A stretch of DNA of 22,635 nt from a virus, in IMG/VR virus record IMGVR_UViG_3300012936_000195, positions 1 to 22,635 of that record, one strand, 5' to 3'. Position numbers and translations under genes: made by a program. Shown here piece after piece: positions 917-19,708 of this stretch. Each line of letters begins with the position of its first letter. Position 1 is the stretch's first letter. The notes beneath the pieces were generated by a model. The model was not told the DNA's origin. It was given only the letters and a program-made list of their open reading frames with translations, and made no database searches.

Positions 917-924
917 TATTTATT
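917..924 (-). promoter_or_regulatory. T4-late-type promoter (AATAAATA) for the fibre gene
   Basis: On the minus strand the bases read AATAAATA. This fits the NATAAATA late-promoter form described for marine T4-like phages, where T4 itself uses TATAAATA. It overlaps the stop codon of the giant baseplate gene and ends 29 bases before the fibre ATG, leaving room for a short leader. That leader contains AAGGA, 12 bases before the start. In so A+T-rich a genome a chance match is possible, but the position between two genes supports it. Confidence 0.55.
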
Positions 925-3900
925 CTTCACTAAAGTATCCTGTTGTTATACCTGCTTGATTTACACTGTATCCTGGTTCAGAATATGTAGAGTTAAACAA
1001 GTTAAAGTTGCTGTTTCCACCTGCTCTAATGAATATAGCTTGTTCTGAAGGATCTAGTGATGCTTTATCCCATAATGTATCTACTCCATCCCATGCAACT
1101 GCGTCCCATGTTGCCTGTACAGTTTTATCAATCATTGTTGTACCTGCAGGATCTAATGCACTCCATCTAGCTGAATCTTTAGCATTTGGAATATCATGCT
1201 GATCGTTTGCTGAGTTTACTTTGTCATTTGCTTTGTGTGACTGAATTGGCGTGCCATACACACCTCTTCTTAATTTTTTCAATCTGTTTCCGTCAACTTC
1301 TCTGAACTCAATTATTTCCTGATTAATCCAAATGTATCCAGGATTATTATCGTTGATAGTGCCAGTGACTGTTGCTGGAATAGTGCCTATAGTCACAGTA
1401 TTATCATCTGGGTCCTTAACTGACAGTTGTTGATATAATACTGAAGCATCTGCAACATCAATATAAGTCACAGTGTCATCTATATTAGCTGACAATGTTG
1501 TTTCAGCAACAAGAGGTAATCTTTTGAACGATATGAAACCGTTGCTGTTATAGAATATTCTAAACGTATATTGATCACCGTATCCGTATTGTTCAGTGAC
1601 GTTGCCATCACCATCGATGTCTGCAATATCTGTAGCTGTGAATTCTGCTGTGGTTACAGTTATCGATAAATTTTCTTTCATGTTTGTACCAACATATTCT
1701 TCAGGATTGTCAGTTTGCATTGGTCTATAGAATCCAGCGGCATCGAAAACTGATGTCACTAGTTCCCAATTACCGTTTGCATAATCAGTTGCAAACGTTC
1801 CTGACGTGTGATCTTTTAATGCAACATAAACTAAATCTTTTATGTAATCCCACTTGCTAAAATCAAAACTTGAAACATCAACTGCGTTATGTTTGACATT
1901 GCATCTGTAAACCAATCCTTGATGTTTAACATAAGCACCTACTTCGTAGTTTTTACTCACGTCCCAGGATGTGAAGTGTGATAAATCTGTGTATGACACC
2001 ATAGTATTACTTGACATGACTGATGACTTATTAAGTGTTATAGATGGTGTATATGCAACACCTGTTTTCCATACTGTTGCACTTTGGAATAATGTTGTGT
2101 AGAATTTTTGTTGAGCTGAAACGTCCCAATCTAATGATGTGTCGTATCCTGTAACATCCAATCCTAAGAATTCAACTAATTCGCTGTCAGTCAGTTTGTC
2201 AAAGCCAAAAGGTAGTCCATTTAAGTCTATGTCTTTGAATGGAGCAATAATTTTCTTTAACGATGCCATGAAAACTTTTACTGCATTTTCATCATTAGTA
2301 TCTAAATCATTTAATTCTTTGTATAGAACATATTTTGCTATTCTTTCAACTGCATTGTCATTACTCTGTAAATCACCTTGTCTGCCATCAAACTCAATAG
2401 CAGAAACTGTTCTTTTTCTTTTCAGTTCAGCTAACTGTTCTGCATCAGTACCAGATCCAAGTAATTCAATTTTCTGACTGATTCTGTCAAACACAATCTT
2501 AGGTGTTATTTTAAAGCTGTCATCTGCATCAACTTTTACTTCTTCAAGTACTGGTTGTTTCTTGCTTAGATAATTTACAAGTTTACTGTGATATGGTTTA
2601 GCTTCGTTGATATATTCTTTCACAAAGTTAAATGTGTCAGGTGTGTAACTTGCCAGTTGCGTTAAAGATAAATCATCTTGTACAACATCAAAGTAAGAGG
2701 TTTTAATTACCCAGTCAATATTTTCTTGTTCGGCAAAGATATAGTTTAGCATATCAAATAACAATGTGTTATTTTTTACCTGATTAGAACCTGCAAAAAT
2801 ATAATCATATAATTTTTTCATTAACAATCTAGTGTCAGTGGCCACATCATCGTTTGTGTAAAATTTAGAATTAATTTCAAACGTACTTGTTTGGTTTGCA
2901 ATTCTAACAAGTTCTTTCGTGCTTGATCCACTGCCTGAACCGCCACTGCCTGAGCTCTGTGTTTCTACTGAATAAGAACTGTATCCAGAACCCGGTGTGG
3001 TTGTAGCTGTGCTAGATTGTGTAGTAGATCCTGTTGATACTGGTGCCTGTCCTGAGATAATCGTATCTCTATCACCGTAAATGTATACTGCCCATTTATT
3101 GTTGTAATCAGAATTAACTTTAATGACTTCAAAGTCAGATAACACACTTGTATCAATATCTGAATATGTATCGACTGTTCTGTTTATAACAATAGCATTT
3201 GTATAGCCAGACAAATAATAGTCTTTTTTATCATAAATTGCACTGTTAACAAATCCATTTTCCCATTCTGGATAATCTATGTCCATGTTTATTTTAGATA
3301 TAATATTGTTTAGAGATGATGCAAATTGTCTTCTAGCTTCTTTGATATTTTTAAACCAAGTCTGTCTAGGTCTGATACTGTTACCATATCTATTCAAAGT
3401 ACCAAGTGTTGCTGTGTCTGGCACTGCTAGTCCTGATGCATCTTGTCCACTTAGACTGTCTGTAAATTTATTCCAAATTCTTTTATCAACAGGTTCATGT
3501 GGATCGTTCTGTTTTAACATCAACCATTGCTTATGTGATGGCTTGTCAACGTCAATTGTTCTGTAATTTAAAGTAAACAAACTATCATCTGTAATTGATT
3601 TTGTGCTGTTAGCAATAATTAAGCTGTTTTCATCAACAGGTGCATACCAGTTTAATCCAAATGAAGTTGGATCCTTGATAATTCTTGCTAATGAAGTTGT
3701 AGAATATCTTCTCCAATTTACGTCTGGTGTTTCTGTTTTATTCTTTGTCCAGAAGTAATATCTTGTAGTTTCAAAATTTTGTTTGTCAGTTGTTGTTATA
3801 ACTGAATAATTTGTTGTGTTCACTGGTGTTCCATCACCTACATAGTTAGCCGGCGCCGTTGAACTTTCAGTCCATTCATAAATGTCAACTGTTGATCCAG

Positions 3901-6900
3901 GAAATATCTTACTCCAATATTTTTGTTTGTATGATAGATCAAAGTTTTCATATTCAAAATATTTCAATGTAGAAGTATTCCACCATGTGTTACCTACTTG
4001 TTCTGCACCCCATGGTTCTAAATTAGTAACAGACGCTGTGTCACTGTGATTTGTGTAGACAGCTGGATCAACTAATCTTTTATAAACTATTTCTTTTTCT
4101 GCTATAGCCGGAATTAAACTTTTAGCTGGATCGTATAAATTAAATTCTGTTTCTCTGTTGTAATCTCCTAGATCAACTAATTTTGATTTATTGAATAAAC
4201 CACTATCAACTTGTTTTGTATTTTTATTTGTTCTTACAGTATCTGCAAATATTGTAGGAGACAAATTAGCAGTGTCTGTGTAATCAACATCTGAATTAAT
4301 TATCCAGTGATTGCTACCAATAGTAATACTTGAGTTTACATTGGCGTTCGATGCCAAGTTATCATATGCAGTTTTGACACTTGCACTTGTTGTCGCTTTT
4401 AAATTGTACCAATATGTATCTCCGCCATTGTCAATCCAGATCTGATCACCGTCAGTAAAGCTGATTGAAGAACAAACATTTGAAACAAAGTCATTAACTG
4501 TTGCAGATAAATTAACACCGATATTGGCTTGGTCTATGCCGTTATTTCTTGTAGCAAGTCTTACATCTTTGTAAACATATAATGGATGTGGTGATCCAGC
4601 AAGTGTTGTAGTATCTATAGTTGTTGCAACTTCACCAGTGCCATTCATTTTTAAAACATCATATGTTGCTTTTTTGTAATTAACTGTAATGGTTGCATTA
4701 CCAGTTGTTCCTTTTGTTACACTGAATCTAGCTCGAACTGTCACGTTTGATCTATCAGTTACATTTGTACCAAATGCTGTTTTATCAAGAGTGATATCTG
4801 TTCCTACCGCAGTGTTGATCTCCATTGGATTACCTGCAGAGAATTTTGTATAGTTTGTACCTTGACCTATATCAAGTTTTGGTGTACCACCAGTGTTGTC
4901 AAATGCTTCATTTATTCTGACAACAACATTGCTTATTTGATCACATTTAATTAATGGGTCTGTGATATCAACAAACTTATTATCGCTTGTAGCTATTGTA
5001 TCTGTAACAGTAATTTGTATATCAGCATTTGGCGTAAATTCTTTTCTATATCCATAACCTGGATTTGTTGAGTAAGCACTAGTAATACTTCCTGCACTAT
5101 GTTCTGTTTCACCACTTGCTATACCAACTGTGCCAGAAACTGTAAATTGCGGATTGACATAAGCCGAACCACCAGCATTTACTTTGTAAGTTAATATACC
5201 ACCAAATGTTGTATCACCTGATGACTGTGTGCTTCGTTGTGTTACTGTGTTTGTTCCATTTGTTTGTGCCCCACTTGAAACTCCAGTGAACACATCCGTA
5301 GTTGCTGGTGCTTGATTGTGATTGTGTACGTGTAAAACAATTACCCCGCCACTTGCTTTTTTAAATGAGTTAGTAACAGTTGCTGACATTCCAGAATTAC
5401 TTGTTACTGTTTCGCCTTCAGTGAAATTAACTGCCGCATTGTTTAATGTTGTATCAATCTGATATGTTGGATTGTTACCTTTTAAATTGATAATTGCTCC
5501 TACACCTGATGAGTCAACACCACCTGTTTTAATAGATATATCTGCCGGCTCGGCATAGAAGCCTCCACCTGCACTTACCAATGTGATTGAAGTTATTGCA
5601 CCACTGCCATCAACAGTTGCAACTGTACCCGTAGCACCTGTGCCTCCATTACCACTGACCGAAACAGTATCACCTACTGAATAACCTGTACCGCCGTTTG
5701 TAATCACAAAGCCTGCAACTTTATCAGCTATTGTGTCTGCAACTATATCTGCATTGGCTCCACCAAAGTCACCAAATGTTATTGTTTTAGATACGCTGGT
5801 ATCTGTTAGATTTAATTTTAATTTCTTACTACCGTGTGTAGTTGATATTACTGCAACATTACTTGCATTAACTTCTTTTGGTAAAACTATTTCAGTTGTA
5901 GCATTTGCTGTAGTTAATAACTTACCTGCTGACTCATCTAATGTCACAGTTAATGTGTCATTGCTTACTACACTGTCTAGTGTTTGTGTTATAGATGATA
6001 ATCTGTAAACGTTCCAGTCTAGATTAGTATCTTTAGCTATCCAATAAGTAGAACCTAATGAAATACCTGTGCTGACATTATTTTCATAATGTGTTAACAA
6101 GTTTGCTCTGTCAAATATTTGATATGTTGTATCTAGTGCATGAACGTAACCTGCTGTTGGCATTTCAAATTTTTCATTTCTAGTTGAAAATAATTCTTTT
6201 GTGCTTCTATCACCACGTGGCTTTTTGACCCATGTTTCATTGTCATCAACATCTATTGTAATTACATCATCAAATAAATCATCTGTGGTTACAACATCGT
6301 TCTTCTCAGGTAAGAAAGTTATTAGTTGTGGATTTGATTTTATTTTAGTACTGTCAATTTTAAATTCAATAGATTGATTTACATCTGTACCACCAAAGTC
6401 TCCTACTTTGAATGCATAGTATTCATACGTATCAAAATTTTGATTCTGTGTTACTTTTTCACTTCTAGTGATTTTATCAATACTGTTCAGTGTTCCTTTT
6501 TGTCTAATAAATCCTTGATAGAATTTTGTTTGATTGTCGTCAACAATTTCTAAGTTATCTAAATATGTTCTATTTTGATAACCTATTGTGTGTAGTCCTG
6601 ATGCATTTAAATTTTCATTGTTAACTGGTTTGTCAACATCTAAATAATTTTCTATTTCATTAGTACTTGTTTCAAAGTTACTGATAATACCATTTGTGCC
6701 ATCGATCAAGTAACCGTTAGCTTCTAGTTTACCCATCCAATCGTTTGTTCTCAAGAGTGTTTGTTTAACTCTTGGTTGTCTTATTGACAATGTTGGATTA
6801 TATAATGTATCTTTAAACAAAGTTTCATTATCAAAAATTGTAATGTGTTCTATTTCTCTTACATATAGATTCACAAAGTATATTGGTTCTCTGTTGTCTT

Positions 6901-9900
6901 GTGTGACTGAAATCTGTGAACCTTCTCTTAATACTGTAGTTGTTGCTGGGTCAATAGGACTTCCTGTTTTATCGAGTATAGAATATGTACTACCAACAAT
7001 ATCTTCTATGTTAGCAACAATACCTAAGTTTGGTTTAAACTTAACTTGGTTTGCCGCTGGTGATAAAGCAATGATACTTCCTACACTCCAACCACCTACG
7101 CTCCAGAATAAAAATTCTTTGGCCGCATACAACCAGTTTAATGTTTGACTTGCATCATTGTTTATTTCATCAAATATCCAGCCCTGGCTTTCTAAATATC
7201 TTCCATAATTAATTAAGAAGTCAAAAACTTCTTGTGCAGTTTTAAATTCTGTACCATATGGAATCTTAATTGTTTTGTTTGCTACTGCTCTCTGATAATA
7301 GATTGCATTAACTCCGCCTTCAGTTGGAATGTTGTTTATTGTTTTAAAATTCTTAGCTACGAATGTGTTAGATGTAACATGATTAACAAGTGTTTCAAAA
7401 AACTGACCTTCGTATCTTATTAGTTGTCCTTTTTCTAAAGTTTGATTAGGTAAGTATGGTCCTACTTCAATTGCTTTGCCACCTACCGACACTGCTACTT
7501 TAGATCCTGATTTGTTACTTTCTGTTGTGTTGAAATAACTTCTGCTTATGTCATAACCTCTTACAGTAAAACCGTTTGTTGTTTTTTCAACAACAACACC
7601 GCTGTATGAAGCATTTTGTATACTTGGACCAGCATGAGGTAGATGTGAAATATTGTTGTTTGGAATATACACACTTGTTCTTGTTGAATTAGGCGAGTAT
7701 GACTCTGTCTGAGCTCTGTAACTACCAAAGTCAATAAATGCACCTTGTTTGTGTGCAAGTTGCGGTCTAACGTTTCTTAGTATACCGCCATAAAAGTTTT
7801 TAACATCTTTGTTAGCTTCAACTAATCTTTGACTGACATACTGTTGGTATCCACTAGCACTGAACACATCTGATCCAATGCTTTCTCTGTGTACATAAAC
7901 ATTGTTTGTTGGTCTTTTACCTGTATTAAAATCATATGAACTTTTTAAATTTATTCTTGCTTGTCTAGTGTTTAATGTATCAAAACATTTCTCATAGAAC
8001 TCAGCCGGCTTTAATACTGACAATGTTATCATTTCTCCAAATGATCCTGCACTGTTAATAAAATATGCTCTTTCACCTGGTGCGTTATCACCTATCTTCC
8101 AATTTGTTTGTGCTTCAGAAACTGTAGGCTCTCTGCTCACTAAACCGATAGTAAACGGATTAGTTACTTTTCCAAATGCATCTACCGGAACATAACTGCT
8201 GAAACCTTCGTGCTTGTATGGATTTTCTTGATCAGTGTAGCTTAGATCTAAAAAGTTTTTACGTAAACCTTCTCTGATAATACCTTTTTCAATATCGTTT
8301 ATCAAAGCGGTTCTTTTAGCAGGTTGAGTCCAGCTATAATTTCTTTCCCACCAATGTGGTTTGACTGTGTAGCCTAGCATTTCCCACGGATGTGTATCTG
8401 GCCTATCAGTGCCATAGAATTTTTTATAAACACCTCTCCAGTGTCCAGGTGCTTTCGTTCCGCTTATGTCTTGCAGAGCACTCCAGTTCCATGTTTTCCA
8501 ATCACTTGCTTGATAACCATCATTTGTAAACAGTTCTACACTGTTGTTTACTGCCCATCTGTGAATGTGTGGTGTCAGTACTTCCGTGTATTCATCATAA
8601 CTGTAATCTTTTTTATTGAAATAGTTACTGACTACTGTTTGATATGATACAGGTGGAACATAATCTGGATCCATGAATCTATTTTCAATGTCGTTGTAAA
8701 TTCTTTTTTCAAGTTCTAGCAATGCTCTGTCACGTACATCGTTAAATTTAAGATTCAAAGAACCATCATGTCCTTCAATAAATGTTTTTGCACCTGATGA
8801 ATAACTTGTATCCGTAATTTCTCCGGGTAAGAATGTTTTTGTTATACCTAACTTGGCTGGCGTAGCAGGTATCCATGCTGGTTGTTTTGAATCGTAATGA
8901 ACAACTTTAATAACATCACCAACATCTGGTTTAACTTCGCCAGTGAACACTAAACGTGATCCACTTGAGTTTTCAATAACGTAATCATGATTCATTGTCA
9001 TCAGTTTATCATTTTTATAAACATAAACTGATTTCAAATCTTTGTCATCTCTAGGATTGAATGTATTAGTCAAGTCCAGACCAGGTTCACCTATCATGGA
9101 TAATATATCTTGATAATCTTGTACTGCTTGGCTTTGTGTCTGTGTGTTACTCCAAGTTTTATTTTCTGTTGTGATATTGATCGTTTGTACTTTAGAGTTA
9201 TCACCGTAATTCAGCATCAAACTATAAGCCCATTTTTCACTTACTTTTCTGTTTTTGTTTAATGACTGTAATGCTTGATCGACTAGACTAGCATCTGTGG
9301 TTGTTGCTAGATCTTTTTCTTTATCCAGCTGTATAATTTTTTGCAAAAACTTATTTTTAAATCTAACATAATCATCTTGTGCTGTTCGTGTTGCTTTAAC
9401 AACATCTCTGTTGTCGCTGTTGACATGAGCCATGTATTTCACTAGTGGTGCTGTGTGCTGTAATATTTTAGTACCAAATTCGTTATTTTTCTTAGTGTCT
9501 CTATATGTGTTAGATCCTAAAGGCTTACCAGTAATGTTAAACTGTTTAGAAACAGCCGAACTCATGTGCGGTAATAAATCGCTGTAGCTGTATTCTACAA
9601 CTGAACTGTTTAACGCATTGTGCGTTAAGTTTGTTGGCATCTGATATCTTGCTTTTTTCAGTTCTTTTATTTCATTGCTAAACCAAGTTATGAAAACATG
9701 ATTTCCTTTAGCAACATCACTAGTCATTTTAACTGTTTTATTTTTTTCAATTTTAAAATCAACATTGTGTTCTTGCTCAACATTGTTTATATATAATTTT
9801 ACTTTTGAATCATCAGCTATCAATGATTCTAGTACAAAAGTATTTGCACTATTATAATCATCGACATTGAAATTTTGTTCTAATGGTTGTATTGATTTAT

Positions 9901-12376
9901 TTTTAGGTTGTATCCATTCAGACTCATATTCACTTGATATGGCATCAACTAATGTAGAAGCTGTGTTGTTCACAACTAACAATTTGCCACCCATGTTGGA
10001 ATGGTTAACACAATAATAGTACATTGTGTCTGGAGTATTAGTGTCTGGTGTGAACTCAACTTTTCTAGAAGTCGCGGTATTGTAGTTGGCGCCATAGAAA
10101 GTAGTTTCATTTACTTCAACGTTGTCATGATAGTATTTTACTTTAGTTGAATATCTAGAACCACTTGCGTGAGTACCATTACTAGTTGTGCTTAAAGCAA
10201 ACGGATGTATACCTGCTGAATATCCTTTATTGGTTAAACTCGAGTCAGACAGATCAAATACATATTTGTTTCCTCTGATTAGAACTAAATTTTGTGTTTC
10301 TACATCATCGATGAAATATTTGTTTCCAGTAGATTCTATACCTGGCTGTACAATTACTTTATGATCAATAACTTTTTCTAAAGTTGTTGGATATGAAGTT
10401 TTTTTGTAGTAAGCAAGTCCTATACTTTCATCTTGCTGATAGTTTTTAAATTCTGTGGTGCTTACACTAGTATATGAATCATATGATAATGGAAATCCTA
10501 AAGAAGTATCGTTTGTGCCTGTGCCTACTTTGTAACCAAAGAGTTTATTACCAGCGAATGTTGAATCACTATATTTCACTGAGTCATTTAATGCTACGCC
10601 ATTACTGTCATACAACATAAACAACGGTGCTTGGTTGTAATCTGATTTTGCCTGTGACAATGTCCACGCAAATCCATTCCAATAATATTCTTTACCAGCA
10701 TTTGTTTTACCTTGTTTAACTGTTATCTTGTCATTGTCTAGGATTGTCAATCCAGCGACTTTATTTAAAGCAATGCTTGTACCGACGCCGCCAACAGTCC
10801 ATACTGAACTAGATTCGTCAAAGTCGACACCTGTAACATCCCATGCTTTATCAGATGCACCATCTCCGTCTGAGTCGTGGTCCCATGGGAAGTCATTACC
10901 ATCCCATAAAATCATAGATGTTTGGAAATTAGGATTTAAGAATAATATTGACATACCATTCTCTAGAGGTATGCCGTCTATTGTAAACGATGCCTGTCCT
11001 TCTATGTCTGCCTTTGTATCAGATGTAGATAACAAGTTGACTGTTTGTTTATGAACAGCACCATAATTGAACAACTGTAAATTTTCTTTAAATTCGATAA
11101 TTGGTCTGGTAGCTTTTCTAGATGAATCTAATTGAAAACTAGATTCTTGTAACTTGTCAGTTGAATCCCAATAGCCACTGTCGTATCCATTTACATCTGT
11201 GGTAGATACATCCCATGGATGTTGAACTTGCACCAATGCTTGTAAGTTTCTATAACTTGTGATATTATCTCTGTGTATCCAACCGTTTGTTCTTGACCAT
11301 GGATTTTTATCTTTTGCAGAACGATCGATAGTCAAGTAATCATGTGTACTAAAGTCAGGATCAGTATCCCATTTTCTACTATCCCATGAATAACTTCTAT
11401 CTACACCGCTGACTGTTACAGTATAATCCCATGGTTGTTTTTTCTGTTTAATGTATAATTCTGTTGACAATGTATCTTCGTCAGCTTCGACTAGTTCTAT
11501 ACCGTTACCTCTACCAACTCCTTCAACATAATATTTTTTATTTTTATATGCTGTCTCTGTTAGATAGTCGTTGTCAAACTCAATTAACATACCAGAACTA
11601 AATTTAATATTGTTCGGTGATGTGTAATTTATTGATCCTATGATTGATGTTGGAGAAACTTTGTGTGTTACTTCAATTACATCATTTGCACTGATTGTGA
11701 TTCCTGAGTTTGCAAAGTCTAGGTTTAATCCTAATGTTTCATAATCTGCTGTTACAGTTCCGTTAACAATTACAACATCAATGCTTGACGTAATCGGGTA
11801 TGATAGAGTAAAAGATGTCTGTGAAGCATTAGCAGTAAATTTTTCAACAGATCCTGTAACAACAATTGATGGAAGATCCGGGTCGGCACTCGGATACCAA
11901 TAATAGTTTTCATAGTTAATAAATTTATCATAATCAATCGGAGGTGCATAACTGTAATACTTCTGATTAAACAATCTGTTCTGATCATTTGTTTTACCGT
12001 TTTCACTTGATACATGATTTAGTGCTTCGCTGTAAAATACAGCGTCAGTTTTATTCAATGAATCTGGGTTTCGTATAACTAGAGCTGGTTCTAACTGGTA
12101 GTCTTGTCTAGTTTTTGTTTTTTCTATTTTGTAGTTGTCTTTCTCTTGTGAAAAGTAAACATCATCTTTCCTACCGATAAATTCAGTTGTCTTAACCGAG
12201 TCCGGTGTGCTGAAAAGTTGTTCTACAGTTCCATCAAAAAAGTTTTTCAGTTTTGCTGATTGAAAAACTTCAGGTAAGAATGACAAAGTCTTGAATGACT
12301 CAGTTGTACTAACATTAGCTGAGTATGTATCGCTAATATTACTATTAGAAAATGAAATGTTTGACTCGTAAGCCAT
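920..12376 (-). CDS. Giant baseplate/tail structural protein (T4 gp7 position)
   Basis: This is one uninterrupted frame of 3818 codons directly downstream of gp6, where T4 has gp7 (about 1030 residues). Visible parts: an N-terminal region with a YENYYWYP motif; a cupredoxin-like segment at about 675-805; a Trp-rich block near 1300-1370 with RPDTHPWEMLGY and KPHWWERNY, a signature I associate with large structural proteins of marine T4-like phages; a DLDWNVYRL block near 2100; a glycine-rich GGTGYSVGD beta segment near 2220-2280; a Ser/Gly/Thr low-complexity linker near 3110-3150; and, at about 3680-3735, a segment containing IWINQEIIEFREVDG followed by a conserved-looking RRGVYGT. No signal peptide or membrane helix is evident. 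The start is well set: an ATG 2 bases after the gp6 stop, preceded by GGAGG. It is likely part of the outer baseplate or a fibre-attachment scaffold. Its exact T4 counterpart is inferred from position, and fusion of several ancestral baseplate genes is possible. Confidence 0.8.
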   Translation of the reverse strand: MAYESNISFSNSNISDTYSANVSTTESFKTLSFLPEVFQSAKLKNFFDGTVEQLFSTPDSVKTTEFIGRKDDVYFSQEKDNYKIEKTKTRQDYQLEPALVIRNPDSLNKTDAVFYSEALNHVSSENGKTNDQNRLFNQKYYSYAPPIDYDKFINYENYYWYPSADPDLPSIVVTGSVEKFTANASQTSFTLSYPITSSIDVVIVNGTVTADYETLGLNLDFANSGITISANDVIEVTHKVSPTSIIGSINYTSPNNIKFSSGMLIEFDNDYLTETAYKNKKYYVEGVGRGNGIELVEADEDTLSTELYIKQKKQPWDYTVTVSGVDRSYSWDSRKWDTDPDFSTHDYLTIDRSAKDKNPWSRTNGWIHRDNITSYRNLQALVQVQHPWDVSTTDVNGYDSGYWDSTDKLQESSFQLDSSRKATRPIIEFKENLQLFNYGAVHKQTVNLLSTSDTKADIEGQASFTIDGIPLENGMSILFLNPNFQTSMILWDGNDFPWDHDSDGDGASDKAWDVTGVDFDESSSVWTVGGVGTSIALNKVAGLTILDNDKITVKQGKTNAGKEYYWNGFAWTLSQAKSDYNQAPLFMLYDSNGVALNDSVKYSDSTFAGNKLFGYKVGTGTNDTSLGFPLSYDSYTSVSTTEFKNYQQDESIGLAYYKKTSYPTTLEKVIDHKVIVQPGIESTGNKYFIDDVETQNLVLIRGNKYVFDLSDSSLTNKGYSAGIHPFALSTTSNGTHASGSRYSTKVKYYHDNVEVNETTFYGANYNTATSRKVEFTPDTNTPDTMYYYCVNHSNMGGKLLVVNNTASTLVDAISSEYESEWIQPKNKSIQPLEQNFNVDDYNSANTFVLESLIADDSKVKLYINNVEQEHNVDFKIEKNKTVKMTSDVAKGNHVFITWFSNEIKELKKARYQMPTNLTHNALNSSVVEYSYSDLLPHMSSAVSKQFNITGKPLGSNTYRDTKKNNEFGTKILQHTAPLVKYMAHVNSDNRDVVKATRTAQDDYVRFKNKFLQKIIQLDKEKDLATTTDASLVDQALQSLNKNRKVSEKWAYSLMLNYGDNSKVQTINITTENKTWSNTQTQSQAVQDYQDILSMIGEPGLDLTNTFNPRDDKDLKSVYVYKNDKLMTMNHDYVIENSSGSRLVFTGEVKPDVGDVIKVVHYDSKQPAWIPATPAKLGITKTFLPGEITDTSYSSGAKTFIEGHDGSLNLKFNDVRDRALLELEKRIYNDIENRFMDPDYVPPVSYQTVVSNYFNKKDYSYDEYTEVLTPHIHRWAVNNSVELFTNDGYQASDWKTWNWSALQDISGTKAPGHWRGVYKKFYGTDRPDTHPWEMLGYTVKPHWWERNYSWTQPAKRTALINDIEKGIIREGLRKNFLDLSYTDQENPYKHEGFSSYVPVDAFGKVTNPFTIGLVSREPTVSEAQTNWKIGDNAPGERAYFINSAGSFGEMITLSVLKPAEFYEKCFDTLNTRQARINLKSSYDFNTGKRPTNNVYVHRESIGSDVFSASGYQQYVSQRLVEANKDVKNFYGGILRNVRPQLAHKQGAFIDFGSYRAQTESYSPNSTRTSVYIPNNNISHLPHAGPSIQNASYSGVVVEKTTNGFTVRGYDISRSYFNTTESNKSGSKVAVSVGGKAIEVGPYLPNQTLEKGQLIRYEGQFFETLVNHVTSNTFVAKNFKTINNIPTEGGVNAIYYQRAVANKTIKIPYGTEFKTAQEVFDFLINYGRYLESQGWIFDEINNDASQTLNWLYAAKEFLFWSVGGWSVGSIIALSPAANQVKFKPNLGIVANIEDIVGSTYSILDKTGSPIDPATTTVLREGSQISVTQDNREPIYFVNLYVREIEHITIFDNETLFKDTLYNPTLSIRQPRVKQTLLRTNDWMGKLEANGYLIDGTNGIISNFETSTNEIENYLDVDKPVNNENLNASGLHTIGYQNRTYLDNLEIVDDNQTKFYQGFIRQKGTLNSIDKITRSEKVTQNQNFDTYEYYAFKVGDFGGTDVNQSIEFKIDSTKIKSNPQLITFLPEKNDVVTTDDLFDDVITIDVDDNETWVKKPRGDRSTKELFSTRNEKFEMPTAGYVHALDTTYQIFDRANLLTHYENNVSTGISLGSTYWIAKDTNLDWNVYRLSSITQTLDSVVSNDTLTVTLDESAGKLLTTANATTEIVLPKEVNASNVAVISTTHGSKKLKLNLTDTSVSKTITFGDFGGANADIVADTIADKVAGFVITNGGTGYSVGDTVSVSGNGGTGATGTVATVDGSGAITSITLVSAGGGFYAEPADISIKTGGVDSSGVGAIINLKGNNPTYQIDTTLNNAAVNFTEGETVTSNSGMSATVTNSFKKASGGVIVLHVHNHNQAPATTDVFTGVSSGAQTNGTNTVTQRSTQSSGDTTFGGILTYKVNAGGSAYVNPQFTVSGTVGIASGETEHSAGSITSAYSTNPGYGYRKEFTPNADIQITVTDTIATSDNKFVDITDPLIKCDQISNVVVRINEAFDNTGGTPKLDIGQGTNYTKFSAGNPMEINTAVGTDITLDKTAFGTNVTDRSNVTVRARFSVTKGTTGNATITVNYKKATYDVLKMNGTGEVATTIDTTTLAGSPHPLYVYKDVRLATRNNGIDQANIGVNLSATVNDFVSNVCSSISFTDGDQIWIDNGGDTYWYNLKATTSASVKTAYDNLASNANVNSSITIGSNHWIINSDVDYTDTANLSPTIFADTVRTNKNTKQVDSGLFNKSKLVDLGDYNRETEFNLYDPAKSLIPAIAEKEIVYKRLVDPAVYTNHSDTASVTNLEPWGAEQVGNTWWNTSTLKYFEYENFDLSYKQKYWSKIFPGSTVDIYEWTESSTAPANYVGDGTPVNTTNYSVITTTDKQNFETTRYYFWTKNKTETPDVNWRRYSTTSLARIIKDPTSFGLNWYAPVDENSLIIANSTKSITDDSLFTLNYRTIDVDKPSHKQWLMLKQNDPHEPVDKRIWNKFTDSLSGQDASGLAVPDTATLGTLNRYGNSIRPRQTWFKNIKEARRQFASSLNNIISKINMDIDYPEWENGFVNSAIYDKKDYYLSGYTNAIVINRTVDTYSDIDTSVLSDFEVIKVNSDYNNKWAVYIYGDRDTIISGQAPVSTGSTTQSSTATTTPGSGYSSYSVETQSSGSGGSGSGSSTKELVRIANQTSTFEINSKFYTNDDVATDTRLLMKKLYDYIFAGSNQVKNNTLLFDMLNYIFAEQENIDWVIKTSYFDVVQDDLSLTQLASYTPDTFNFVKEYINEAKPYHSKLVNYLSKKQPVLEEVKVDADDSFKITPKIVFDRISQKIELLGSGTDAEQLAELKRKRTVSAIEFDGRQGDLQSNDNAVERIAKYVLYKELNDLDTNDENAVKVFMASLKKIIAPFKDIDLNGLPFGFDKLTDSELVEFLGLDVTGYDTSLDWDVSAQQKFYTTLFQSATVWKTGVAYTPSITLNKSSVMSSNTMVSYTDLSHFTSWDVSKNYEVGAYVKHQGLVYRCNVKHNAVDVSSFDFSKWDYIKDLVYVALKDHTSGTFATDYANGNWELVTSVFDAAGFYRPMQTDNPEEYVGTNMKENLSITVTTAEFTATDIADIDGDGNVTEQYGYGDQYTFRIFYNSNGFISFKRLPLVAETTLSANIDDTVTYIDVADASVLYQQLSVKDPDDNTVTIGTIPATVTGTINDNNPGYIWINQEIIEFREVDGNRLKKLRRGVYGTPIQSHKANDKVNSANDQHDIPNAKDSARWSALDPAGTTMIDKTVQATWDAVAWDGVDTLWDKASLDPSEQAIFIRAGGNSNFNLFNSTYSEPGYSVNQAGITTGYFSEE
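9962..10354 (-). other. Cupredoxin-like domain with type-1 copper ligand set
   Basis: Within the giant protein, about residues 675-805 form a compact beta-rich segment. It contains GIHPFALS (His724) and, 65 residues later, YYYCVNHSNMGG, giving Cys789, His792 and Met795. His...Cys-x2-His-x2-Met is the ligand order of type-1 copper proteins, and the Cys-x2-His-x2-Met spacing equals that of amicyanin. Similar YYYC..H..MGG segments occur in other marine phage structural proteins. Real copper binding is inference: the fold may have been kept for structure or adhesion alone. Confidence 0.6.
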
Positions 12377-15300: not shown

Positions 15301-15924
15301 TACACCATCAACTGATGCACTAATATTTTTTACTACAGATTGATCGCTTGTGCTGTTGATGTTATAAATTTCTGAAGACACGCCATTTACTGTGCCACTC
15401 TTAACTGGATCACCAAATTGGTTAGTGCTGTTGAATGCACTGTTACAAATCTGTAACCATTGGTCATACCATTCTGTGTTGTTTGGATCATTCCATGACA
15501 CACTTGTATTTGATAAATTAGTTCCTTCTGAATCAACTAAAGGTTCATTGGTACGAACTTTAGTTACTTTTAATAAACCTCTTGCTGGTACATTTCTCTT
15601 TGGTGTGTAGTTTACAAGTTTTGCGAGTCTAATAATACTGTCTCTTCTTTCAGCAGTATCAAAAAAGTTTTCTCTTGAATTTAAATCTGTTCTAAATGCT
15701 AAACTTTGACCAAGGTATGAAAGCAAATCAATGATAGCAATAAATTCACTTGACTGAATGTAATCATTAAAGTCTTCAGGATAGTTAGTTTGAATATAGT
15801 TTAACATACTTGTTCTTATAGAATCGTAATCGTATGATGTGAAATCAGCCTGAGTGAAACTTCTGTAAATTGTTTTCCAATCTTCTGCTGAGAATAAATT
15901 ATCCTGTCTTTGTATTTGACTCAT
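12379..15924 (-). CDS. 6: Baseplate wedge protein gp6-like, enlarged
   Basis: The 1181-residue product matches the gp6/baseplate-J type of wedge protein, which joins neighbouring wedges into the inner ring around the hub. The N-terminal signature lies at about residues 60-115, with IIDLLSYLGQSLAFRTDLN, then a run containing RRDSIIRLAKLVNYTPKR. The C-terminal 140 residues hold FRVVKIPNTNYTD, an INRYF...WDFGDTFYYSEL block and IVPKDSEAKFGDLFQIKAG, typical of the end of the family. T4 gp6 is 660 residues, so several hundred residues of beta-rich Ser/Thr/Asn sequence are inserted between the conserved ends. The ATG overlaps the gp25 stop by one base (TAATG), implying translational coupling. gp25 and gp6 belong to one wedge complex, which supports the call. 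Confidence 0.9.
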   Translation of the reverse strand: MSQIQRQDNLFSAEDWKTIYRSFTQADFTSYDYDSIRTSMLNYIQTNYPEDFNDYIQSSEFIAIIDLLSYLGQSLAFRTDLNSRENFFDTAERRDSIIRLAKLVNYTPKRNVPARGLLKVTKVRTNEPLVDSEGTNLSNTSVSWNDPNNTEWYDQWLQICNSAFNSTNQFGDPVKSGTVNGVSSEIYNINSTSDQSVVKNISASVDGVTTSIDVVKSDIHSDSYFYEKDPDQSEAYNLIYKNDNQGFSSNNTGFFAYFKEGELGYEDVTFETPAPNRTVDISLSNINDLDVFVQKVSTSGGVLEKWKKVPSLFGQNTIYNSLALTDTKIFSVQSRNNDQVTVNFSDGNFGTAPKGNFRIWHRRSAGQGQVIRANRIQNKDVSITYTNKEGQQYVLTLSLTLNYNVTNSQASETDASIKQNAPKSYYSQDRMVNAEDYNIFPLTQSTSIQKIKAINKTHIGHSRYLDINDPTGTVKSVNVYGEDGILYKNPDFTLNSEEITGTVVDYTSYTYIIENILEPLIQKNLLSNYYYDTYKKAVESDHDANQFVMQLASTEKNEWVTYPSAGASQYGYLVIAGAVNKSISQATGVHLSPKNNNEKLGMIRPGTVLEFVDDYTTPTKSIFTTVVSVRNNGAVTSEDTAGAIQLDKQITNGYKIRKILPNFRTSLTTTEKENIRSQMQAGVNFGIGYHYRDPSLKTEGWYIIEDDYINTTNDFSVQYNAKFPPGYQALSSDTSWLVYAKYIPASSSASSARYEFTIRGLDYVFESKDEVRFFYVSDYKNIDSQTGKAVKDTIEILDINKDVRLLTNPGSEEKLSNPITFSVADSFTEQDGYVDIKKIKVSNIDNDNDGAPDNPIAHDDLLSDNHYVFFESYNDYDGYTYYRLSNAVTQVSTMAAAASVNGIAFVTADTTASNNFFFYRGNGSGVIATLNKLENDVSSTSYTKRKGYDTTNKSTYKAYVGRSFTSSNKLYFHYKHSAPRSQRIDPSVSNIIELVILDKTHYTNVQNWFSSGSARSLFPAEPTSQEIKNSVNELEKYKSISDQLIYTSAKFKLLFGPTADEQNQAIFRVVKIPNTNYTDNEIKTEIVNAINRYFAISNWDFGDTFYYSELAAFIHTQLSSKISSVVIVPKDSEAKFGDLFQIKAGSNELFFSTATVNQVEIVSGLTGVNLRSVTDNAVGGY
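12386..12390 (-). promoter_or_regulatory. Shine-Dalgarno GGAGG fixing the start of the giant gene
   Basis: On the minus strand GGAGG lies 9 bases before the ATG at 12376 and inside the last codons of gp6. It is one of the few full-strength ribosome binding sites in the window. It makes this ATG, 2 bases after the gp6 stop, the clear start of the 3818-codon gene. Confidence 0.75.
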
Positions 15925-16349
15925 TATATTGTTTCTCTTTCAAATAGTAGTTGCATTGTTGCTTGTTGGTTAAATGGCATCACTGTTATACCTACTTCAA
16001 TTCTTAATCCGTTTTCAGCTTCCATTACATTAGATCTATCTAATTCAACTCTTGGATCACTGCTGATAATTCTGTGACAATCTTCTATGATGATTTCCTT
16101 GTTTGCATCATCTAATGGTTCGTATAACATATCCCAAATTATTGAACCAAATTCAGGATTCATAACTCTTTCGCCTTTTCTTGTGTAAAAATGATTGATT
16201 AAATCTTGTTTGATCAATTCAACGTCATACAGCTGATTAGTTTTTCCACCAGAAAGAGTACTAAAACCTTTGTAGGTTCCGGCTCTCAATTGACTGCTCT
16301 GTGATGAAGCAGAATTACTGTTATTACTAGTTGTTGTACTGTATGCCAT
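15924..16349 (-). CDS. 25: Baseplate wedge protein gp25-like
   Basis: The 141-residue product is close to T4 gp25 (132 residues), the small wedge protein related to TssE of type VI secretion. gp25 binds gp6 and helps start sheath assembly at the baseplate. After a Ser/Asn-rich N-terminal stretch of about 35 residues, the core starts at DVELIKQDLINHF. It contains RKGERVMNPEFGS (58-69), the typical gp25 core motif, then WDMLYEPLDD and a DPRVEL segment (98-103) at the place of the conserved acidic-PR motif of the family. The gene is first in a minus-strand unit gp25-gp6-giant protein, with a one-base stop/start overlap with gp6. A late-type promoter lies 18 bases before its ATG. Confidence 0.93.
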   Translation of the reverse strand: MAYSTTTSNNSNSASSQSSQLRAGTYKGFSTLSGGKTNQLYDVELIKQDLINHFYTRKGERVMNPEFGSIIWDMLYEPLDDANKEIIIEDCHRIISSDPRVELDRSNVMEAENGLRIEVGITVMPFNQQATMQLLFERETI

Positions 16350-16367
16350 AATCTTTTACTCTACAGA

Positions 16368-16375
16368 TATTTATT
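16368..16375 (-). promoter_or_regulatory. T4-late-type promoter (AATAAATA) for gp25-gp6-giant unit
   Basis: The minus strand reads AATAAATATCT, matching NATAAATA. It ends 18 bases before the gp25 ATG, which would give a leader of only about a dozen bases. It sits in the inverted repeat opposite a plus-strand copy, which makes chance less likely. Confidence 0.6.
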
Positions 16376-16417
16376 GTTGAATTTATATGCTGTTTTAATT
16401 ATATATCTAAATATCAA

Positions 16418-16425
16418 GATAAATA
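16418..16425 (+). promoter_or_regulatory. T4-late-type promoter (GATAAATA) for the clpP-like gene
   Basis: The plus strand reads GATAAATATCT, matching NATAAATA, and ends 26 bases before the clpP ATG. It shares ATAAATATCT with the oppositely directed gp25 promoter. If used, clpP and the following 77-codon gene would be expressed late, together with the virion genes. Confidence 0.55.
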
Positions 16426-16451
16426 TCTTAAAACACAAAATAAGAAAGATT

Positions 16452-17015
16452 ATGGCTTCAAAATTTGAAAATTTTACGAGTGAAGATAGGATAGACGTAT
16501 CCTTATTAGAGAATGACGTACACTATCTCTACGGAGATATAGCCGAAGATAATGTGGCTCAAGCTATCAAATGGATATTACACTCTAATCTAAAAAAGAA
16601 GCCAAAAAGAACACTCACTTTGTACATCAATTCATACGGTGGTGACGTTTATCAGATGTTTGCACTGATAGACGTAATGAAAAACAGTTATCATAAAATC
16701 AGTACAATTGGTATTGGTTGTATTATGAGTGCGGCATTAATGATCCTAGCCAGTGGAGCCAAAGGACTCAGATACGTTGGTAAGAATACTGGTATAATGA
16801 ATCATCAACATTCTGATGCTATAGAATCCAAAATGCATGATCTAAGAGCTTCAATGAAAGAAAATGTACACGTCGAACAAAGATGTTTCCAAATATTACG
16901 TGATGCAACTGGCTACTCATTGGCAGATGTGCGTAAAAAATTCAATAATCCTTCTGATCAATACTTCACGGCAAAACAATTGGTTGACTTAAAGGTGGCT
17001 GATCATATACTATAG
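16452..17015 (+). CDS. clpP: ClpP-like serine protease
   Basis: The 187-residue product resembles ClpP along its whole length. YINSYGGDVYQM (58-69) is the oxyanion-loop region (YINSPGG in E. coli). GCIMSAALMILASGAKG carries the nucleophile Ser93, GIMNHQHSD carries His118, and NPSDQYFTAKQLVDLKVAD carries Asp169. The Ser-His spacing of 25 is the same as in E. coli ClpP. There is no propeptide: the ATG at 16452 gives a protein about the size of mature ClpP. An in-frame ATG at 16374 would add 26 hydrophobic/basic residues but lies upstream of the late promoter, so it was not chosen. ClpP forms a barrel that degrades proteins fed by an AAA+ unfoldase; none is encoded here, so it may use a host ClpX/ClpA or act alone, for example in virion protein maturation. 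It stands on the opposite strand from the baseplate genes. Confidence 0.9.
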   Translation: MASKFENFTSEDRIDVSLLENDVHYLYGDIAEDNVAQAIKWILHSNLKKKPKRTLTLYINSYGGDVYQMFALIDVMKNSYHKISTIGIGCIMSAALMILASGAKGLRYVGKNTGIMNHQHSDAIESKMHDLRASMKENVHVEQRCFQILRDATGYSLADVRKKFNNPSDQYFTAKQLVDLKVADHIL

Positions 17016-17019
17016 GTAT

Positions 17020-17253
17020 ATGAGCAATCAGATCAAAAACTTTTCCAGCGGAAAAGACTGGTGGTACATGGATAGGAAACAAGCTATCCAACTTCTGGAC
17101 GTAATTACTGAAGCCTATAATAAGAAACTTTCAGACGAGTTATGGTATGATGATCATGATGTGGCTTTAAAAATGTATGAGATCAAGGACGATATCATGC
17201 GATTTCCTGATATAATATTCCGTAATGCTGGTATTAAAATCGAAAAAGACTGA
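17020..17253 (+). CDS. Small acidic protein of unknown function
   Basis: The 77-residue product is not recognised. It is acidic, apparently mostly helical and soluble, with Trp and Tyr near the N terminus (GKDWWYMDR) and a WYDDHDVALKMYEIKDD stretch in the middle. It begins 4 bases after the clpP stop, so the two are probably co-transcribed and perhaps coupled. No good Shine-Dalgarno precedes the ATG at 17020; an internal ATG at 17068 would give a 61-residue protein starting MDRKQAIQLLD and cannot be excluded. Its position suggests, without proving, a function linked to the protease, such as a substrate adaptor or modulator. Confidence 0.65.
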   Translation: MSNQIKNFSSGKDWWYMDRKQAIQLLDVITEAYNKKLSDELWYDDHDVALKMYEIKDDIMRFPDIIFRNAGIKIEKD

Positions 17254-17281
17254 TAGTTGGAAAGAAAAATGCAATTACCGG

Positions 17282-17310
17282 TTGACATTAATTGAATACT
17301 AGTATATTAT
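17282..17310 (+). promoter_or_regulatory. Near-consensus sigma70 promoter (TTGACA-17-TATTAT)
   Basis: TTGACA (17282-17287) is a perfect -35 box. It is followed by exactly 17 bases and TATTAT (17305-17310), one mismatch from TATAAT. Transcription would start at about 17316-17318. This is the strongest host-type promoter seen in the window. It would drive the 104-codon gene independently of the late promoters, for instance early in infection. Confidence 0.8.
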
Positions 17311-17346
17311 AAGGATGTTATGTTTAAAACGTTAATAAAATATCTC

Positions 17347-17351
17347 GGAGG
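17347..17351 (+). promoter_or_regulatory. Shine-Dalgarno GGAGG deciding the start of the 104-codon gene
   Basis: GGAGG lies 10 bases before the ATG at 17362. The frame could also open at ATG 17320, preceded by AAGGA. However, the predicted transcript start (about 17317) leaves almost no leader for that start, so 17362 is preferred. Confidence 0.7.
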
Positions 17352-17361
17352 TAACAAAGAT

Positions 17362-17676
17362 ATGGCAAGAACAAAACAATACGTTGTATACACTAGAGAG
17401 TTCTCAAAAGGTAGAGTTAACAATAAAGTTGGCGTATTCCTAGATGAGGCTAAAAATGCAACAGATAACTCAGGTAACATCAATGGCGGTGTTATCAAGT
17501 TCAAAAACCTAAAGATGAAAAGATCAACTCCAACAACTGATCTAGTATCTAAAGGTTATGATTTCAATGTAAGAGTAATTGGTACTGGTTCGTACGAAAC
17601 TGCGAAACAAATCAAAAACTCTGTAATTGAGTTATTGTCTGGTACAGGTAAAACTGTAATCAATGCTAACGCATAA
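17362..17676 (+). CDS. Basic 104-residue protein of unknown function, own promoter and terminator
   Basis: The product starts MARTKQYVVYTREFSKGRV and is not recognised. It is clearly basic, with many Lys and Arg and few acidic residues, lacks cysteine, and has no membrane segment or signal peptide. A beta-rich first half (VNNKVGVFLDEA, GGVIKFKNLKMKR) is followed by GYDFNVRVIGTGSYETA and a helical end (AKQIKNSVIELLSG). It sits alone between a near-consensus sigma70 promoter and a perfect intrinsic terminator, with a full GGAGG site, which predicts strong expression. Nucleic-acid binding or a small abundant structural role would fit the charge, but neither is shown. An upstream ATG at 17320 would add 14 residues and is considered unlikely. 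Confidence 0.8.
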   Translation: MARTKQYVVYTREFSKGRVNNKVGVFLDEAKNATDNSGNINGGVIKFKNLKMKRSTPTTDLVSKGYDFNVRVIGTGSYETAKQIKNSVIELLSGTGKTVINANA

Positions 17677-17697
17677 TTAAGACAATTAACACTATGG

Positions 17698-17725
17698 AAA
17701 AAGGCGCTTCGGCGCCTTTTTTTTT
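17698..17725 (+). terminator. Perfect rho-independent terminator
   Basis: The sequence is AAAAA, GGCGC, a TTCG tetraloop, GCGCC, then nine T. The flanking A and T runs extend the stem. It follows the 104-codon gene by 21 bases and should stop its transcript efficiently. Confidence 0.93.
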
Positions 17726-17726
17726 G

Positions 17727-17756
17727 ACTTATAAACAGTTTTTATTGCTTATAAGT
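17727..17756. repeat. Inverted repeat ACTTATAA / TTATAAGT
   Basis: The perfect 8-base arms ACTTATAA (17727-17734) and TTATAAGT (17749-17756) are separated by 14 bases. They lie directly after the terminator and before the membrane-protein gene. They could be a binding site for a dimeric regulator or a weak RNA hairpin. Confidence 0.6.
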
Positions 17757-17778
17757 TGGTTAACAGCATTGTTAACCA
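17757..17778. repeat. Inverted repeat TGGTTAAC / GTTAACCA
   Basis: The perfect 8-base arms at 17757-17764 and 17771-17778 surround the 6-base spacer AGCATT. The right arm overlaps the -35 box of a weak promoter candidate, as an operator would. A third, 6-base pair (TGTGTT 17786-17791, AACACA 17803-17808) follows. Confidence 0.65.
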
Positions 17779-17797
17779 CAAACAATGTGTTTAAATA
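17769..17797 (+). promoter_or_regulatory. Weak sigma70-like promoter candidate for the membrane-protein gene
   Basis: TTGTTA (17769-17774), 17 bases, then TAAATA (17792-17797); each box matches four of six consensus bases. A promoter is needed here because a strong terminator lies upstream, but this assignment is tentative. Confidence 0.3.
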
Positions 17798-17817
17798 ATA
17801 CGAACACAATTTAGTTA

Positions 17818-17822
17818 GGAGG
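17818..17822 (+). promoter_or_regulatory. Shine-Dalgarno GGAGG of the two-helix membrane protein
   Basis: GGAGG with an 8-base spacer precedes the ATG at 17831. This is an optimal arrangement and fixes the start. Confidence 0.75.
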
Positions 17823-17830
17823 TCCATAAC

Positions 17831-18064
17831 ATGGATATTATTAACAAAATAAAATCATGGGCGTCAGCTTTAGCAGATGTCGGTGTTTCTTTAATAGCTC
17901 TAGGAATTGTCCTAGAAGTTCTTTTTACAGGCCAAGGCATTCCTTTTTGGCCAGACATTTCAGTAATTGGAAATGTACAATCAATCATTGCAGGCTTTTC
18001 CGCACAAGGTTTAGTTGGATTAGTAGCAATTTGGGTTTTATATCACATTTACAAATCTAAGTAA
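17831..18064 (+). CDS. Small two-helix membrane protein, holin candidate
   Basis: The 77-residue product has two clear hydrophobic segments, about residues 12-33 (DVGVSLIALGIVLEVLF region) and 55-74 (FSAQGLVGLVAIWVLY region). They are joined by a loop with PFWPD. The N terminus (NKIKSW) and C terminus (YKSK) are basic, predicting both ends in the cytoplasm and the loop outside. Size, two helices and a charged C terminus fit class II holins, but no endolysin is in the window and the family was not recognised with certainty. It could equally be a small membrane protein that alters the host envelope. It has a strong ribosome binding site and lies just upstream of another tiny membrane-protein gene. 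Confidence 0.8.
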   Translation: MDIINKIKSWASALADVGVSLIALGIVLEVLFTGQGIPFWPDISVIGNVQSIIAGFSAQGLVGLVAIWVLYHIYKSK

Positions 18065-18070
18065 AATCTA

Positions 18071-18093
18071 AAAGGTCGCCCTAGGCGGCCTTT
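18071..18093 (+). terminator. Weak terminator or attenuator hairpin between the two small membrane genes
   Basis: AAA, GGTCGCC (18074-18080), CTA, GGCGGCC (18084-18090), TTT forms a seven-pair stem with one G-U pair. The T run is only three bases before CTC, so it is probably a partial terminator or a processing/stability hairpin. It would lower expression of the next gene relative to the first. Confidence 0.65.
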
Positions 18094-18110
18094 CTCACAA
18101 GGAGTATAAT

Positions 18111-18230
18111 ATGAAATTTTTCAAAAACAAATGGACATGGGTTGGTATAGCAGTACTTTTAATTGCCGCTTGGTTAATTATGGGTGATGCACCAATGCTA
18201 CCGGGTAGCGAAGCTACACCGACAGAATAA
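18111..18230 (+). CDS. 39-residue single-span membrane protein
   Basis: A 39-codon frame starts MKFFKNKWTW and ends at TAA 18228-18230. AAGGAG (18099-18104) lies 6 bases before the ATG, an excellent initiation signal that supports a real gene despite its size. Lys residues 2, 5 and 7 precede one hydrophobic helix (about 10-24, VGIAVLLIAAWLI). A short polar tail, MGDAPMLPGSEATPTE, follows, predicting N-in/C-out topology. There is no lipobox cysteine, and signal peptidase cleavage is uncertain. It is placed between two terminator-like hairpins and just after the two-helix protein. A role as its partner, such as an antiholin, is possible but only inferred. Confidence 0.75.
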   Translation: MKFFKNKWTWVGIAVLLIAAWLIMGDAPMLPGSEATPTE

Positions 18231-18252
18231 TAAAAAAATATTCTTAAAACTT

Positions 18253-18279
18253 AAAGGCGTCTAATAGGCGCCTTTTTTT
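18253..18279. terminator. Intrinsic terminator between convergent genes, likely bidirectional
   Basis: AAA, GGCGTC (18256-18261), TAATA, GGCGCC (18267-18272), then seven T on the plus strand: a good terminator for the small-gene island. On the minus strand the same stem is preceded by seven A and followed by TTT. It overlaps the end of the gp5-like gene by two bases, so it probably also ends transcription from that side, with lower efficiency. Confidence 0.85.
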
Positions 18280-19708
18280 ATGACTGATTAGCCAAATTTT
18301 TACTTTCGTGATCTGGATAAGGTTCTCTGGTTGGGAATCTTGTCAATATTGAACCTCTTTTAGTTTCAGTATGTCTAGGGGAATTCAATGCACTACCTGA
18401 TCTAGTTTCTAAAATATTTGTATACAACAAATTACCTTCACTATCTACTTTTAATGATATTCCAGAAATTGCTGTTGTTTTGAGAGCTACTTGACCTGCT
18501 GAGTTCATGTCAATTCTACCTGCACCGTTATTGGCAGTTTCTTTGTGACTAACACCACTATTAATATTTGATGATCCTACCTGTGTTAATTTCAAATCTT
18601 CTCCTGAATACACATTTGTATTCTTAGCAGTAGTAGTACTAATATCTTCACCGGCTTTTAATTTAATTTCACCAGCAACATCAATATGTAAAGTACCAAG
18701 TACATCATCTAAATCTACAGTTGATTTTGGTTGTGTTTCTGGTGTAGTTGATTTAGTGCTGTGTGTTTTAATGTTGATGTTTCTACCTGATTCAATATTA
18801 ATATCTCTATCTGCTCTAAAATTTATATCTTTTTCAGATCTAACTGATATAGAATCAGCACCCCACATTTCAATTTTACCTGATTGAGAAATTTCAACCC
18901 AACCTGTGCCTTTGCTGTTCACAACATATACAGTGCTGTTAGAATCATCAAGTAAAATTTGTGATCCGCCAACGGTTCTTAATCTTACGTAATTTTGACT
19001 GCCGTCGTCCATTACAAACTGATGACCGCCTGGTGTTAATATACCAAACACTTTACTAGGTGTTTCTCTTCTTGCTGTACTGTCAGTTAATCCTCTAATG
19101 TTATCGTTTTCTAATCCTTGTGTAGTAAGTCCTTTGTATAAAGGTTCATGTTTTGCTCTACGTACACCGTCAACAGGTTTACCTGCTTCTGTATGGAATA
19201 AGTCTAGCAAGTCATCTACTTCTGATCCTGCTCTGTTATGTTCAGCTACAGGAACCACAGGAGCATCTTTGCCGAACGTTGCACCTTTGGCTATGCCAGG
19301 TAACATATGATTCATACCTGGTTGAAATAAGCAACCTAAACAAACACCATTGTTTTGATCTCCGTTAATAAATGCTACAATAACTAGATTACCCACATCA
19401 GGAGGTGTCATCCACATACCATAACTTTTTTGTGTAGCAGAATAAGAATTTTCAATTTCAGCTTTACCTTTAACTAAACCGCTTTGTGGTGTTGTTCCTG
19501 CAAATGGCGAACTCCACAGAACAGTTTTCCATTTACTGGCATCTGTTTTGTCGGCTTGTGATCCATATAAGAAAACTTTTAAACGACCCATTCTGGCATT
19601 ATCAATAACTTCCATGACTTCACCAATTTGTATGGTATTAAGTTTTACCTGTTTGGTATCAAACTTTTTATTGTATAATGATGTTGAGCTTTCTATTTTA
19701 TTTGACAT
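18278..19708 (-). CDS. 5: Baseplate hub/central spike protein gp5-like, without lysozyme domain
   Basis: The 476-residue product has the plan of T4 gp5. Residues 25-140 form an OB-fold-like N domain (IGEVMEVIDNARMGRLKVFL; later PPDVGNLVIVAFINGD and GCLFQPGMNHMLPG). Residues 215-330 contain GILTPGGHQFVMDDG and beta repeats, and the rest is a spike. Octad repeats of the gp5/VgrG type are readable as ISVRSEKD, INFRADRD, INIESGRN, INIKTHST (about 285-316) and again as IKLKAGED, ISTTTAKN, TNVYSGED (about 345-370). The C terminus ends in RFPTREPYPDHES, a tail style I associate with marine phage gp5 proteins. T4 gp5 is 575 residues with a lysozyme domain between OB-fold and helix. Here that space holds only about 75 residues with no recognisable lysozyme, so the spike probably punctures mechanically. 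It starts 5 bases after the hub gene. Confidence 0.88.
   Translation of the reverse strand: MSNKIESSTSLYNKKFDTKQVKLNTIQIGEVMEVIDNARMGRLKVFLYGSQADKTDASKWKTVLWSSPFAGTTPQSGLVKGKAEIENSYSATQKSYGMWMTPPDVGNLVIVAFINGDQNNGVCLGCLFQPGMNHMLPGIAKGATFGKDAPVVPVAEHNRAGSEVDDLLDLFHTEAGKPVDGVRRAKHEPLYKGLTTQGLENDNIRGLTDSTARRETPSKVFGILTPGGHQFVMDDGSQNYVRLRTVGGSQILLDDSNSTVYVVNSKGTGWVEISQSGKIEMWGADSISVRSEKDINFRADRDINIESGRNINIKTHSTKSTTPETQPKSTVDLDDVLGTLHIDVAGEIKLKAGEDISTTTAKNTNVYSGEDLKLTQVGSSNINSGVSHKETANNGAGRIDMNSAGQVALKTTAISGISLKVDSEGNLLYTNILETRSGSALNSPRHTETKRGSILTRFPTREPYPDHESKNLANQS

Follow-up and report, generated by a model that had tools for sequence, protein, structure and literature searches.

An opposite-strand gene island with a conserved backbone and variable extras between gp5 and gp25 of marine T4-like phages

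In the virus record studied here, the minus-strand genes for the baseplate proteins gp25 and gp5 are separated by an interval (16350-18277) that holds five ORFs read the other way, and this arrangement raises the question of whether such genes are passing cargo at an exchange site or a settled part of the genomes that carry them. The window, by which we mean the whole stretch of DNA analysed, is the entire 22.6-kb record. A sequence-only reading had described the baseplate cluster as interrupted between gp5 and gp25 by five small opposite-strand genes, encoding a protease, unknown proteins and two tiny membrane proteins, and as furnished with three terminator-like hairpins. This description holds throughout (Table 1). 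Pfam matches identify both borders, and the identity of gp5 is also backed by a DNA match to the annotated gp5 of PA5oct relatives; the protease is a ClpP by Pfam, tm77 has two hydrophobic segments and tm39 a single TM segment, and the five ORFs are not chance frames, since their reading frames are conserved in relatives. The three hairpins, scored as fold z against shuffled sequence, are far more stable than the shuffles (z -4.4 to -4.7). The one that sits where the island meets the gp5 end folds on the minus strand too, and so may serve gp5 as well. Elsewhere in the window, a single minus-strand ORF of 3818 aa (920-12376) follows gp6.

Table 1. Features of the island and its borders, in window coordinates.
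Feature	Position	Strand	Remarks
gp25 baseplate wedge protein, left border	15924-16349	minus	Pfam GPW_gp25 PF04965, 8.5e-10
Late promoter element AATAAATA for gp25 (predicted)	16368-16375	minus	18/18 representative haplotypes, 4.6 expected in shuffles
Late promoter element GATAAATA for clpP (predicted)	16418-16425	plus	15/18 representative haplotypes, 3.6 expected in shuffles
clpP	16452-17015	plus	ClpP-type serine protease, 187 aa, triad S93-H118-D169; Pfam CLP_protease 1.2e-27
orf77	17020-17253	plus	small, acidic, mainly helical; in 29/31 close intervals
Sigma-70 promoter TTGACA-17-TATTAT for orf104 (predicted)	17282-17310	plus	conserved in relatives
orf104	17362-17676	plus	basic, 104 aa, GIY-YIG-like predicted fold; alternative in-frame ATG 17320
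Terminator hairpin 3' of orf104	17696-17723	plus	UUCG tetraloop and U-run, fold z -4.4
tm77	17831-18064	plus	small membrane protein, two hydrophobic segments (hydropathy); 28/31 close intervals
Terminator-like hairpin 3' of tm77	18071-18093	plus	fold z -4.6, weak U-tail
tm39	18111-18230	plus	39 aa, single TM; recognisable in 9/31 close intervals
Terminator hairpin between convergent tm39 and gp5 ends	18253-18275		z -4.7 plus, -2.6 minus; also found by terminator scan
gp5 baseplate hub protein, right border	18278-19708	minus	Pfam Phage_base_V 1.6e-07

Searches of viral contigs seeded with ClpP and with gp25 yielded 160 loci, with some contigs represented more than once, from which we drew a close set of 31 distinct gp5-gp25 intervals, the window's among them, whose gp25 is at least 55% identical to the window's. 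These intervals are distinct sequences and are not independent; grouped by similarity, they reduce to 17 representatives plus one further type, L023. Within the close set clpP and orf104 are present in all 31 intervals, orf77 in 29, tm77 in 28 and tm39 in 9, and the backbone, with clpP first, keeps one gene order throughout. The presence of clpP is not merely an effect of the seeding, because two of the loci (L085 and L102) were found through the gp25 search only. Around this backbone other genes come and go: a cold-shock protein (cspA; CSD, 5e-25), an S-adenosylmethionine decarboxylase (speD; 2e-13), a radical-SAM protein (9e-08), a weak kinase-like match, small basic or membrane proteins, and a 320-aa protein encoded on the minus strand. 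The extra genes sit mostly between tm77 and gp5; cspA is also found between orf104 and tm77, and one interval (L073) has four extra genes between clpP and orf104. Four more distant intervals, those of the L023 type (gp25 46% identical), keep clpP and carry a cupin-like gene (recognised by eye) and an HTH_39 gene in place of the other island genes. Beyond these, there is a type (L060/L061) in which clpP adjoins gp25 and is followed by several radical-SAM-like and SGNH-hydrolase-like genes (by eye; L061, 5596-9066); gp5 was not found within the 5 kb fetched for it.

In this distribution the island consists of a conserved backbone and a variable slot, and we think it likely that it represents a lasting accessory module and not a site at which cargo is freely exchanged. 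The earlier proposal of an accessory cassette site with different cargo in related phages survives in part. Non-structural genes of opposite orientation do insert at this site, which is empty in distant relatives and occupied by other genes in phage PA5oct, and tm39 and the extras do differ from one relative to the next, so that content varies inside a conserved structural module; clpP, orf77, orf104 and tm77, however, are near-constant and in the same order. The comparison of this interval across relatives, which had been suggested as a check, thus returned largely the same genes in the same order for four of the five, the outcome named beforehand as counting against the proposal, with variable extras besides. 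A freely exchanged site, at which unrelated genes are gained and lost and where the five genes of the window would be one content among many, would fit the varying extras, the differing content of the L023 type and of PA5oct, and the empty sites elsewhere; we nevertheless regard it as unlikely, since clpP leads and orf104 is present in every close interval, orf77 and tm77 are present in nearly all, and their order does not change.

The stable-module reading carries with it a question of origin. In distant relatives among the viral contigs, the gp5 stop and the gp25 start are separated by -1 to 20 nt in 34 of 36 loci, and in the remaining two the genes overlap by ORF calling. Phage CBB has no opposite-strand gene between gp5 and gp25, and Pseudomonas phage PA5oct has two (PQE65_gp351 and gp352), neither of them related to island genes by tblastn. 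In a tree of gp25 and the start of gp6, the island-bearing rows fall on one side of a branch with support 88/92, and PA5oct and CBB adjoin that side. The island DNA gave only a short gp25 match in INPHARED, where orf104 and tm77 had no match at E 0.1. We suggest that gp5 and gp25 once belonged to an unbroken late operon, which a single insertion probably interrupted in one clade of marine T4-like phages. The insertion would have left clpP, orf77, orf104 and tm77 as a fixed backbone, with later turnover giving differing extras mostly at the gp5 end. One origin for the island has moderate support from these sequences, and losses can be separated from gains only without certainty.

Comparable arrangements are known. 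The PA5oct pair lies at the same site and in the same opposite orientation and likewise consists of small hypothetical genes; unlike the island, it comprises two unrelated genes and no clpP. The known hyperplastic or accessory regions of T4-like phages also place variable genes, thought to adapt the phage to its host, within a conserved structural module. The island differs from them in its site between gp5 and gp25, in its opposite strand, in the phage clade that carries it, and in a content that is mostly fixed backbone. T4 itself has opposite-strand non-structural genes at gene 5, the repEA and repEB genes of oriE, although these overlap gene 5 itself and are part of a replication origin; an origin role of this kind was one candidate reading weighed for the island.

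How could a late operon tolerate such an insertion? The island had been said to have its own promoters, and by count alone this fails: 14 sigma-70-like sites were found and 13.6 were expected, which is the level of chance. Any claim for island promoters must therefore rest on conservation, and on that basis the sites before orf104 and clpP stand. A sigma-70 site matching at least 10 of 12 positions precedes orf104 in 26 of 31 distinct relatives (1.8 expected), and one matching at least 11 of 12 in 17 (0.1 expected). Before clpP the conserved element is of another kind. The motif NATAAATA, reported as the late promoter of cyanomyovirus S-PM2 and close to the TATAAATA of T4 (PMC2984593), has three copies in the window. 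Two stand back to back, one before gp25 (16375, minus strand) and one before clpP (16418, plus strand). The third, at 924 on the minus strand, is directly upstream of a gene that starts at 887. The rest of the island sequence, 40 kb over 18 representatives, contains it three times. A gene for a gp55-like late sigma is present in both large island-bearing contigs, and none was seen within the 22.6-kb window itself, so that the two elements of T4-type late transcription, NATAAATA and a gp55-type sigma, are both found when the sigma is taken from the large contigs. From the promoters we read clpP as a predicted late gene and orf104 as a predicted early one; the paired late-type promoters would serve gp25 and clpP, and the early-type promoter would serve orf104. 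The island would then show how a T4-like late operon, though divided by genes of opposite orientation, can remain functional with a pair of late promoters.

The leading gene of the backbone is a clear member of its family. ClpP scores 97.4 bits against Pfam PF00574 (CLP_protease; cut-off 20.2), and its triad is invariant among 51 relatives, at positions that fit the alignment to bacterial ClpP. Against the bacterial ClpP equivalog TIGR00493 it reaches 70.2 bits, and because this is far under the cut-off of 308.6, the island protein belongs to a divergent lineage. A 242-kb island-bearing contig (L066) encodes a ClpX well over the equivalog cut-off and a protein over the Pfam ClpS cut-off, which points to a phage Clp system. 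This is the only island-bearing contig in which ClpX and ClpS were found, and neither was seen in the closest relative of the window (107 kb, possibly incomplete). Elsewhere among marine phages, clpP has Hsp20 and ClpS genes in its neighbourhood. It seems likely from these gene contents that ClpP supplies the proteolytic component of a phage Clp system. Its partners would be either the phage ClpX and ClpS, whose genes one relative carries elsewhere, or host proteins, and it would degrade selected host or phage proteins. ClpP, ClpS, ClpA and ClpX have been noted in jumbo phages and proposed to serve host hijacking or to aid assembly (PMC7824862), and ClpP has been noted among ocean viral genomes (PMC5332604); a literature search by phrase for phage ClpP and ClpX gave no match. 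Like the jumbo-phage genes (PMC7824862), the island supplies phage-encoded parts of a Clp protease, but here clpP, with orf77, orf104 and tm77, has a constant place next to gp25. If the association holds, it connects a phage ClpP with phage-encoded ClpX and ClpS in uncultured marine phages.

A late-type promoter before clpP, strong conservation, a fixed position beside gp25, and PHROG matches that are mostly head maturation proteases could also suggest that the island takes part in virion assembly, with ClpP maturing the head or tail and the small proteins being minor virion or assembly components. We consider this very improbable: two island-bearing contigs have another gene for a prohead protease, of the gp21-type S77 kind, which makes ClpP an unlikely head protease, and ClpP scores 51.4 bits against the head maturation model NF045542, under the cut-off of 120, so that the head-protease identity is set aside as the main explanation; moreover, the orf104 promoter is of the early type, orf104 adjoins Clp genes in other phages, and tm77 adjoins gp32 there.

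A second constant member of the module, orf104, is a basic protein (pI 10) that is 71-91% identical among island-bearing relatives. The corresponding range for gp25 is mostly 55-69%, so orf104 is better conserved than the neighbouring structural proteins. It has no match in Pfam, PHROGs or PDB sequence searches. Its AF2 model (pLDDT 83) superimposes on the I-TevI catalytic domain with Z 8.3 and rmsd 2.7 over 82 residues, unrelated rows reaching at most 3.5, and among viral models the listed matches are mostly GIY-YIG. ClpS-like structures in the Foldseek list were dropped (rmsd about 10). A profile of orf104 gave no significant match to T4 GIY-YIG domains; aligned by eye to I-TevI, the protein has a Gly at the position of the YIG Tyr, and its last helix has no invariant Glu among relatives. 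Since the catalytic residues are not kept, we describe orf104 as having a predicted GIY-YIG-like fold that lacks the nuclease residues, and do not file it as a GIY-YIG nuclease. In other marine phages it is found near ClpA, ClpS and Hsp20 genes. We suspect that orf104 is probably made early and that its predicted GIY-YIG-like fold, catalytically dead, would serve to bind nucleic acid or protein. It is a long shot that orf104 founds a new family of such proteins, made early in marine T4-like phages and tied to their Clp genes, with the role of blocking host nucleases that share the fold or of directing substrates to the phage Clp system.

No family match was found for orf77 in Pfam or PHROGs, and its predicted model has a pLDDT of 75. 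Both tm77 and tm39 would be small membrane proteins. Viral contigs hold 265 relatives of tm77; the best 80 were retained, and of these the copies outside the island mostly come after gp32, many of them being followed by curli CsgF/CsgG genes of the pelagimyophage type. The curli region of pelagimyophages (PMC7029224) thus resembles the island in that tm77 homologues lie between gp32 and CsgF/CsgG in similar marine phages, and differs in that CsgG was not found in three island-bearing contigs, which may be incomplete. The single match to tm77 in bacterial genomes, on a MAG contig, is uninformative as to origin. That homologue (74%) lies on L301 (PAND01000020.1, 2089-4234), a contig assigned to a Flavobacteriales MAG. 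A nearby gene resembles 5-aminolevulinate synthase by eye, and the contig is possibly a misbinned phage contig.

Several minor observations concern starts and promoters. At the 3' end of clpP (window 17005-17020) there is a conserved sigma-70-like sequence, TTGACT-16-TATACT, which the ATG of orf77 follows by 8 nt in relatives; its conservation may be due in part to the coding constraint on clpP. Upstream of orf104 (window 17320-17361), 26 of 31 relatives have an in-frame ATG, with none in the other two frames. In most relatives this ATG lies 8-9 nt past the -10 box and opens a 14-27-codon leader of the MF(K/N)xIxxL type, so a long form of orf104 made from a leaderless mRNA is possible on the basis of these sequences. 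A similar leader precedes the unrelated HTH_39 gene of L023. The fetched loci contain 855 distinct sigma-70-like sites, and the starts of ORFs of at least 40 aa peak sharply 6-9 nt past their -10 boxes; the peak spans many gene families (ClpS, S21 and others; for example L199, L201, L205, L239 and L256) and may point to leaderless early mRNAs in these marine phages.
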